Positions 54,305 to 56,329 of a stretch of 64,000 bases of DNA are shown here, piece by piece (position 1 is the stretch's first letter; each line of letters starts with the position of its first letter). This stretch comes from Dongia deserti (GTDB taxonomy: Bacteria; Pseudomonadota; Alphaproteobacteria; Dongiales; Dongiaceae), in assembly GCF_003574735.1 (NCBI RefSeq), contig NZ_QORW01000006.1, positions 168,887 to 232,886 on the forward strand, given 5' to 3'. Both the position numbers and the translations under genes were made by a program. The notes beneath the pieces were generated by a model. It saw only the letters and a list, made by a program, of their open reading frames with translations. It was not told where the DNA came from and searched no databases.

Positions 54305-54916
54305 TCATGCCGCGTGCCGGACCTGCGCCTTCTGGAATGGGACGAAGCCTGGCAGCGCCTCGATGCGGCGAAGCCAGGCCTGGACGTTGCGATAGGGGGA
54401 GAGGTCGACATTCCCCTCCGGCGCGCGCGCGATATAGCTGTAGAGCGCGACGTCTGCGATGGTGGGCTGGGGCGCGGCGATCCAGCTCCTGCTTGCCAGT
54501 TCCTCGTCGATCACCGTCAGCACCACATGGGCGCGGGCGATCACCTCCTCGGCACTGAACTTGGCGCCGAACAGGGTGACCAGGCGTGCAGCCGCGGGCC
54601 CGAATGCGATCTGCCCCGCCGCGACCGACAGCCAGCGCTGCACCGATGCCGCGGCTTCCGGCGTTTCCGGCAGCCAATCGCTCCGGCCATACTTCTTCGC
54701 GAGATAGACCAGGATCGCGTTGGAATCGCTGATGATGGTGCCGTCATCATCCAGCACCGGCACCTGCCCGAACCGGTTCAGCTTCAGGAACTCCGGCGCC
54801 TTGTGCGCGCCCGCGGCGAAGTCGACCGGCACCAGCTGATGTTCCACCCCGATCAGCGACAGGAACAGATGCGCGCGATGCGCATGGCCGGATACCGGAT
54901 GGTGGTAGAGTTTCAT
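54305..54916 (-). CDS. Glutathione S-transferase family protein
   Basis: A 203-residue [43 protein letters not shown] (cis-Pro), [15 protein letters not shown] and the C-terminal [13 protein letters not shown]. The Ser in the N-terminal HPVSGHAHR loop is the likely glutathione-activating residue, as in theta/beta-like forms. GGAGAGGG precedes the ATG. Paired with the PNPOx-like gene downstream. Confidence 0.92.
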
Positions 54917-55036
54917 GGGTCCCTCTCCCTGGTGAGTGCGCAACGCGCTCGTCGCATCTCAAGATGATTATTTCAGGCACAGACGGAAGTAGGGCAATTC
55001 AGGAGTAACTCTTCCAAAGTACGAGAGGTCAGTTCT

Positions 55037-55053
55037 GCCGGCGTTTCGCCGGC
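55037..55053 (+). terminator. Small hairpin upstream of the asd leader
   Basis: GCCGGC (55037-55042) and GCCGGC (55048-55053) pair around GTTTC and are followed by TTTCCCG. It may be a weak terminator or just part of the leader region. The stretch 54917-55143 otherwise shows no gene. Confidence 0.35.
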
Positions 55054-55143
55054 TTTCCCGTCACTTTTCTATCGACAGAGGCCGCGAACCTCTGTAAAAG
55101 GGCCGCCGACCGGAGCCAGCGGGCTCATTGAGGGATTTGTAAC

Positions 55144-55218
55144 GTGATCCAGTCCGTGATCACCCTGAAGACCAAGAAGACCACCGGCACCAAGACCGGG
55201 TGGTGGAGCGCGGCCTGA
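55144..55218 (+). CDS. Candidate Thr/Lys-rich leader peptide of asd
   Basis: A 24-residue ORF: GTG start with GAGGG about eight bases upstream, stop TGA at 55216. Residues 6-18 read ITLKTKKTTGTKT, with six Thr (all ACC) and four Lys (all AAG), then GWWSAA at the end. Thr, Lys and Ile all derive from aspartate semialdehyde, the product of the downstream gene. The ORF is placed and sized as in amino-acid attenuators, with a terminator 33 bases after the stop. Two tandem Trp codons near the end also recall trp leaders but suit the geometry less. Not known to me as a described leader. Confidence 0.65.
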   Translation: MIQSVITLKTKKTTGTKTGWWSAA

Positions 55219-55280
55219 CGGGATCTCGACGGATCAAAGGAAACCAGGGGCCGCAGCAAGATGCGGCCCTTTTTGCTTTT
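55210..55280 (+). promoter_or_regulatory. Candidate transcription attenuator of asd
   Basis: The terminator is GGGCCGCA (55248-55255), loop GCAAGA, TGCGGCCC (55262-55269), then TTTTT-GC-TTTT. The alternative pairing is GCGGCC (55210-55215, the last two sense codons of the leader) with GGCCGC (55249-55254), which destroys the terminator. A ribosome finishing the leader would cover 55210-55215 and allow termination; one stalled on Thr/Lys codons (55162-55197) would leave it free and allow read-through into asd. The terminator lies 18 bases upstream of the asd ribosome-binding region, with no other gene between. Confidence 0.65.
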
Positions 55281-55297
55281 AGGTGAAGGAGCGGATC

Positions 55298-56329
55298 ATG
55301 GGTTATCGGGTAGCAGTGGTCGGCGCCACGGGCAACGTGGGGCGCGAGATGTTGCAGACGCTGGCGGAGCGCAATTTCCCGGTCGACGAGGTCGTCGCTC
55401 TGGCATCGCAGCGGTCCGCGGGCGGCGAGGTCTCCTTCGGCGAGGGGGAGGTGCTGAAGGTCCAGAGCCTCGACCAGTTCAACTTCAAGGGCATCGACAT
55501 CGTCCTGTCCTCGGCCGGCGCCAAGGTCTCGGCGGACTTCGCCCCGCGGGCTGGCGCGGCCGGTGCTGTGGTCATCGACAACACCTCCTATTTCCGCATG
55601 GACCCCGACGTGCCGCTGGTGGTGCCGGAGGTCAACCCGCAGGCCATTGCCGGCTACAAGAAGAAGAACATCATCGCCAACCCGAACTGCTCCACCATCC
55701 AGATGGTGGTGGCGCTGAAGCCGCTGCATGAGGTGGCGCCCATCAAGCGCGTGGTCGTGGCGACCTATCAGTCGGTGTCGGGCGCCGGCAAGGATGCGAT
55801 GGACGAGCTGTTCAACCAGACTCGCGGCATCTACATGAATGCGCCGCTCGATCGCACCAAGTTCACCAAGCAGATCGCCTTCAACTGCATCCCGCACATC
55901 GACGTCTTCATGGACGACGGCTACACCAAGGAAGAATGGAAGATGTCGGTCGAGACCAGGAAGATTCTCGACCCCAAGATCAAGGTCACGGCGACCTGCG
56001 TGCGCGTGCCGGTCTTCGTCAGCCACGGCGAGGCGGTGAACGTGGAGTTCGAGAAGCCGCTTTCCGCCGACGAGGCGCGCGCGATCCTGAAGGCCGCACC
56101 GGGCGTCGGCGTGGTCGACCACCGGGTCGATGAGGGCTATGTGACCCAGGTCGAGGCCGCCGGCGAGGACAAGGTCTATGTCAGCCGCATCCGCGACGAT
56201 GCGACGATCGATAACGGCCTCTCCTTCTGGGTGGTCGCCGACAACCTCCGCAAGGGCGCCGCGCTCAACGCGGTCCAGATCGCAGAGAAGCTGGCGAGCG
56301 ACTATCTGAGCGGCAAGGCCGCCGCGTAA
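55298..56329 (+). CDS. asd: Aspartate-semialdehyde dehydrogenase
   Basis: A 343-residue NADPH enzyme making aspartate semialdehyde from aspartyl phosphate, the branch point to Lys, Thr, Met, Ile and diaminopimelate. Seen: YRVAVVGATGNVGREMLQTL, VVIDNTSYFRMDPDVPLVVP, the catalytic Cys in NPNCSTIQMVVALKPLH, YQSVSGAGKDAMDEL and CVRVPVFVSHGEAVNVEF. AAGGAG is seven bases before the ATG. It often follows leuB in this group; here about 6 kb of other genes separates them, and asd has its own leader. Confidence 0.97.
   Translation: MGYRVAVVGATGNVGREMLQTLAERNFPVDEVVALASQRSAGGEVSFGEGEVLKVQSLDQFNFKGIDIVLSSAGAKVSADFAPRAGAAGAVVIDNTSYFRMDPDVPLVVPEVNPQAIAGYKKKNIIANPNCSTIQMVVALKPLHEVAPIKRVVVATYQSVSGAGKDAMDELFNQTRGIYMNAPLDRTKFTKQIAFNCIPHIDVFMDDGYTKEEWKMSVETRKILDPKIKVTATCVRVPVFVSHGEAVNVEFEKPLSADEARAILKAAPGVGVVDHRVDEGYVTQVEAAGEDKVYVSRIRDDATIDNGLSFWVVADNLRKGAALNAVQIAEKLASDYLSGKAAA

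Follow-up and report, generated by a model that had tools for sequence, protein, structure and literature searches.

A candidate threonine- and lysine-responsive attenuator in front of asd in Dongia deserti and other Alphaproteobacteria

Introduction

The product of Asd is the branch-point intermediate for lysine and diaminopimelate (cell wall) on one side and for threonine, methionine and isoleucine on the other. In Escherichia coli, the thrL leader follows ribosome-mediated logic, with a Thr-rich leader, a terminator and an antiterminator. In Lactobacillales, the asd RNA motif (Rfam) precedes asd genes. Vitreschak et al. are said to have described in 2004 a thrA attenuator of Pasteurellales with Thr, Ile and Met codons.

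A small open reading frame (ORF) of Sinorhizobium meliloti, SEP5, comes closer to the present case; the study that reports it is one we take to be Hadjeras et al. 2023. According to the parts of that paper available, SEP5 has six codons for Thr and three for Lys toward its 3′ end, is located in the 5′-UTR of a gene named aspartate dehydrogenase in the paper, and its translation was detected by Ribo-seq and Western blot (PMC10117765). The downstream gene is presumably asd. The same text suggests SEP5 as a leader peptide and states its conservation for Sinorhizobium only (PMC10117765). An earlier note on the D. deserti sequence knew of no described asd leader of this type; as far as the available text goes, SEP5 had already been suggested as one, and that statement must be given up (PMC10117765). 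In the literature covered, mostly open papers of which parts were available, no other Thr/Lys leader of this kind was found. None is described in the available parts of PMC12925634, PMC2965389, PMC1273637 and PMC10454058, the first of which reports that the E. coli thrL attenuator controls thrABC by Thr and Ile (PMC12925634).

Here we describe the region in front of asd in a 64,000-nt stretch of D. deserti DNA (contig NZ_QORW01000006.1), which is called the window below. Comparison with related loci makes it very probable that asd is controlled from this region by ribosome-mediated attenuation of transcription, with charged tRNA-Thr and tRNA-Lys as the signals sensed.

Asd upstream regions compared

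The survey covers 281 non-redundant alphaproteobacterial asd upstream regions, a sample that is biased toward genomes with Asd similar to that of the window. At first, 200 regions were gathered from named contigs (80), a family sample (16) and a class sample (104); a search of the order gave the same 17 genomes as that of the family. For the class sample, asd was found in 342 of 386 genomes, and the best 110 of roughly 150 matches listed were used, 6 of which were already included. Removal of seven duplicates left 193 regions; in eight of them, which were retained, the beginning does not coincide exactly with a start codon. The family of Mesorhizobium albiziae (L041) was added separately. There, asd was found in 90 of 91 genomes, 89 of which gave a usable region (no start was found for L292, which was excluded), and 88 were left once L203, a repeat of L041, was set aside.

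A leader was called when the last 16 residues of an ORF contain six Thr, or eight Thr plus Lys including at least three Thr. L071 (Methylobacterium) meets this rule and is counted, although it looks weak and has no terminator. In what follows, the L041 group comprises 62 leaders, namely 60 from the L041 family sample together with L041 and L060 (Chelativorans); the other leaders number 21. Within the genus, an asd match was obtained in two of three other genomes, and the third (68% complete) gave none.

A leader ORF and a terminator in front of asd

The features of the locus are collected in Table 1. The downstream gene is asd according to its matches to NF011456 (520 bits) and TIGR01296 (467 bits). 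In front of it, a 24-codon ORF starts with GTG and encodes VIQSVITLKTKKTTGTKTGWWSAA. Six of its codons specify Thr (7, 10, 13, 14, 16 and 18) and four specify Lys (9, 11, 12 and 17), just as the earlier note had read them, and GAGGG is a candidate for the ribosome-binding site (RBS) claimed there. Two further codons, adjacent to each other at 55201-55206, specify Trp. Judged from the sequence, an attenuator's short ORF with an RBS 5′ of the gene appears to be in place, and so is a cluster of codons for end products of the pathway, here Thr and Lys before asd. The 161-nt leader region as a whole has no unusual folding stability (z -1.2; 20 of 200 shuffles equally good).

Table 1. Features of the asd leader region, in coordinates of the window
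Feature	Position	Strand	Basis or remark
Candidate promoter TCGACA-N16-GTAAAA	55072-55099	+	conserved in three aligned sequences; inference only
Candidate RBS of leader ORF, GAGGG	55130-55134	+	9 nt before GTG; AGGG conserved in congener alignment
Leader peptide ORF	55144-55218	+	24 codons; comparable leader in 83/281 asd upstream regions
Regulatory Thr/Lys codon block	55162-55197	+	sequence and recurrence of Thr/Lys codons
5′ antiterminator segment GCGGCC (final two sense codons)	55210-55215	+	partner GGCCGC, 55249-55254
Intrinsic terminator hairpin and T run	55246-55275	+	folding and pattern scan; 5′ arm GGCCGC, 55249-55254
asd RBS, AAGGAG	55286-55291	+	sequence
asd, aspartate-semialdehyde dehydrogenase (P0001)	55298-56329	+	ATG 55298; profile matches

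Both congeners have retained the leader and the terminator, along with the GCGGCC/GGCCGC pair. When the three sequences are aligned, the sole indel within the leader ORF is exactly one AAG codon, and 1-nt indels fall outside the ORF. A transcription start 5′ of the leader ORF, as attenuation would need, is suggested by the conserved promoter-like block, yet no sigma-70 consensus promoter was found by a scan of the window region. On the 5′ side of this candidate promoter there is also a perfect hairpin, CCGGCG-TTT-CGCCGG (55038-55052), which is kept in both congeners with a single loop base change in one of them (L084).

Between the leader ORF and asd, the GC-rich terminator with a T run that the earlier note proposed is borne out: the hairpin has a predicted energy of -19.3 kcal/mol (z -4.4), a stability that none of 200 shuffles matched, and a pattern scan places the terminator at 55246-55271. 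A hairpin that qualifies as an intrinsic terminator might simply end upstream transcription, and the ORF before it might be a chance frame. The upstream gene, encoding a glutathione S-transferase (54305-54943), is located on the strand opposite to the leader and asd, so that the hairpin is not the terminator of that gene, and a plus-strand ORF overlapping it has no Pfam match. As for the chance frame, the only indel in the ORF among congeners is a whole codon, and a Thr or Thr+Lys leader was called in 83 of the 281 asd upstream regions against a mean of 0.15 (maximum 2) in shuffled ones. This explanation is therefore extremely improbable.

Threonine and lysine as recurrent residues

Leaders were called in 60 of the 88 regions of the L041 family sample and in 23 of the 193 elsewhere, the latter including L041 and L060; 198 of the 281 regions have none by the rule. 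Thr-rich leaders that fall below the rule were recognized by eye at L006, L011, L014, L018 (Kiloniella), L019, L147 and L157. The leaders of L011 and L014 end in LTIKATIKTATTR, with Ile besides Thr and Lys, and those of the Kiloniella type (L018, L147, L157) close with (T)MKVKM after a Thr-rich stretch, with a terminator present. Open stretches of 100 codons or more that run on the same strand and end no further than 150 nt from asd are seen in 116 of the 191 leaderless regions and in 29 of the 90 with a leader (the 83 and the seven found by eye). Several leaderless regions look by eye like leuB-asd operons. Upstream of hom and lysC in the window genome, about 1.0 and 1.3 kb were scanned, and no Thr/Lys ORF was found at either locus.

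The commonest pair of amino acids in these ORFs is Thr+Lys, at 79 of the 281 loci, followed by Ala+Thr at 26. Dinucleotide shuffling of the same 281 regions gave a single Thr+Lys ORF in 20 replicates, and the clustering is thus beyond chance. In the L041 family, leaders usually end in TKT(T/M)AKTTTKTV-stop. A search with the codon pattern for TTTKTV-stop gave 24 matches in 24 of 91 genomes, and the reversed pattern, used as a control, gave 2 matches in 91 genomes. Since all 24 matches lie 103-119 nt before asd, the Thr/Lys leader is tied to asd within this family. Synonymous codons are mixed for Thr (ACC 274, ACG 188, ACA 27, ACT 20), and Lys is encoded by AAA (204) and AAG (66).

It may be asked whether such leaders sense threonine only and carry the Lys codons as passengers. 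Thr outnumbers every other residue, with 38% over the last 16 positions of the 83 leaders, and it provides the final Thr/Lys codon ahead of the antiterminator at all 19 loci modelled below. In addition, when leaders were selected on Thr alone (n=88), seven of them had exactly one Lys. However, each of the 88 has at least one, and Lys accounts for 30.9% of the residues that are not Thr, by far the largest share; Ala follows with 13.7%, and Asn, Gln and Glu stay below 1% each. The reverse selection agrees with this, as Thr makes up 45% of the remainder in the 33 leaders selected on Lys alone. By these counts, Lys is a recurrent second residue and not a by-product of selecting on Thr, and threonine-only sensing is unlikely. 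Met, Val, Ala and Ile also exceed their shuffled level in the 83 leaders, though they are rarer (Met 1.7%, Ile 2.8%), so that a minor signalling role is conceivable for Met and Ile.

The adjacent Trp codons of the window leader might instead point to control by tryptophan. The earlier note had found that this fits less well, and the survey bears it out: any Trp occurs in the last 16 residues of 5 of the 83 leaders and two or more in 2 of them, and one of the two congeners is down to a single Trp. By geometry, moreover, a ribosome stalled at the Trp codons would itself mask the antiterminator segment GCGGCC. Tryptophan control is hardly credible for this leader.

Ribosome position and termination

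For the preferred reading, dual sensing of threonine and lysine, we infer the following course of events. Transcription would begin 5′ of 55144, and ribosomes would translate the 24-codon leader. Under shortage of Thr or Lys, the ribosome would stall within the Thr/Lys block and leave GCGGCC free to pair with GGCCGC in the 5′ arm of the terminator; the terminator would then not form, and transcription would read through into asd. When both amino acids are plentiful, the ribosome would reach the stop codon and mask GCGGCC, the terminator hairpin would form, and transcription would stop before asd.

The window has an intrinsic terminator between the leader ORF and the gene, and the two segments of the 6-bp alternative pairing are exactly where the earlier note placed them, although their match is not significant at this locus taken alone (p 0.062). 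In a folding model, the predicted sequestration of the terminator 5′ arm is 0.81 with the ribosome at the last Thr codon and 0.47 with the ribosome at the stop codon. It is across lineages that an antiterminator exclusive of the terminator and set by ribosome position finds its support. In 14 hand-picked lineage representatives, the match between the leader-stop segment and the terminator 5′ arm gave a combined Fisher p of 4e-4, with a single-locus p of 0.05 or better in three of them (L011, L015 and L117). In the window, the match extends over 6 nt, as against 8 nt for L011 and L117 and 4 nt for L018 and L019; at L018, L019 and L178 it is at chance level (p 0.8-0.9). In the same representatives, own pairs of segment and arm match over 6.0 nt and swapped pairs over 4.7 nt (permutation p 5e-5). 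As own pairs match better, comparison of these sequences indicates lineage-specific covariation of antiterminator and terminator arm.

Other tests gave a less uniform picture. A looser test of duplex energy reached 0.05 in just 12 of 28 loci, and the poor ones include L018, L071, L147 and L178. For the Kiloniella type, no antiterminator match exceeding chance was seen at L018 or L157, and L147 stayed at chance level in the duplex test. The folding model predicts the expected direction at 18 of 19 loci, a set that leaves out six loci of the exact-match test, and the predicted differences between stalled and stop states are small at several loci; L104 goes the opposite way (0.46 stalled, 0.53 at the stop). 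Beyond the L041 group, 17 of the 21 leaders have a U-tract terminator after them under a strict rule; the exceptions are L071, L149, L160 and L178. The check that the earlier note had proposed, conservation of the Thr/Lys ORF, the terminator and the antiterminator in relatives, is borne out for some of the loci sampled; a terminator does not accompany every leader.

Termination near 55275 would free a short RNA, and the transcript or its peptide may additionally act in trans, as precedent from S. meliloti rnTrpL and peTrpL suggests in the parts of the literature available. Toward the N terminus, the leader peptides are highly variable, which speaks against such a role, and we consider it very unlikely.

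A different downstream architecture in the L041 group

In the L041 group, just 1 of 62 leaders is followed by a U-tract terminator under the strict rule. A structural analysis was made on 61 leaders chosen for ending in TGA and being of similar length, and in 50 of them a pyrimidine segment 3′ of the leader is predicted to pair with a purine segment adjoining the asd RBS. Double-sided changes in this long-range helix occur in 22 cells, compared with 6.9 in permutations (reached in 0 of 500) and 2 to 9 in slid controls, all counts being inflated by relatedness and taken on the alignment from which the structure itself was predicted. In its number of pair types, the helix is unremarkable, as 111 of 500 permutations reached it. 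The enclosed hairpin passes the permutation test (10 double changes versus 3.5), and it fails the slid control (9 to 13). A short helix of the ORF end with the GGCC that follows shows no change on both sides in this group. The combination of a helix beside the asd RBS, an enclosed hairpin of variable sequence and no U-tract terminator is seen in L041, L209, L259, L266 and others.

When the ribosome is stalled, the modelled exposure of the asd RBS in the group has a mean of 0.52 versus 0.50 at the stop codon (Wilcoxon p 0.024), being higher in 22 and lower in 13 of 62 leaders. With the stall placed five codons further 5′, this difference disappears (p 0.69). Among the 21 leaders outside the group, stalling lowers the exposure (0.42 vs 0.48, p 0.006). 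These values are not taken as support either way; it is the long-range helix ending beside the asd RBS that suggests, as a hypothesis, translational control of asd in the L041 group. More generally, the Thr/Lys sensor might have been kept across Alphaproteobacteria and its output exchanged, with a terminator in some lineages and translational control or factor-dependent termination in the L041 group; we regard the case for this as evenly balanced.

Comparison with known systems

If the proposed reading is true, the leader would act as a sensor with two inputs, Thr and Lys, at the aspartate branch, a function would be assigned to a small protein already detected in S. meliloti, and many alphaproteobacteria would have a testable control point at asd. 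It would also mean that a conserved sensor is coupled to a regulatory output differing among lineages.

No Rfam family was found at threshold in the window region or at gathering score in 14 related loci. The asd RNA motif of Lactobacillales, which resembles the window leader in its position before asd, is absent from the six Rfam matches that the window region gives with E no higher than 10. The window also stays below the threshold of the Rfam family Thr_leader, RF00506 (19.1 bits, E 0.89, versus 55). The thrL leader of E. coli, which this family represents, shares with the window the ribosome-mediated logic, the Thr-rich leader and the pair of terminator and antiterminator; it differs in that thrL acts on thrABC with Thr and Ile, whereas the window has Thr and Lys codons in front of asd. 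The thrA attenuator of Pasteurellales is similar in that several aspartate-family amino acids are sensed by one attenuator, but the gene, the residues and the bacterial class are different.

The nearest likeness is SEP5, which by the paper's description is, like the window leader, a Thr/Lys-rich small ORF in the 5′ region of asd. In the available parts of that paper, no terminator, antiterminator or Thr/Lys response is described for SEP5, whereas the window leader is joined to an intrinsic terminator; and SEP5 is stated there for Sinorhizobium only, whereas comparable leaders here span several alphaproteobacterial families. What appears to be new, and is well supported by comparison of the loci, is dual Thr/Lys ribosome-mediated attenuation of asd that recurs across the class, apparently with two downstream architectures behind the leaders.
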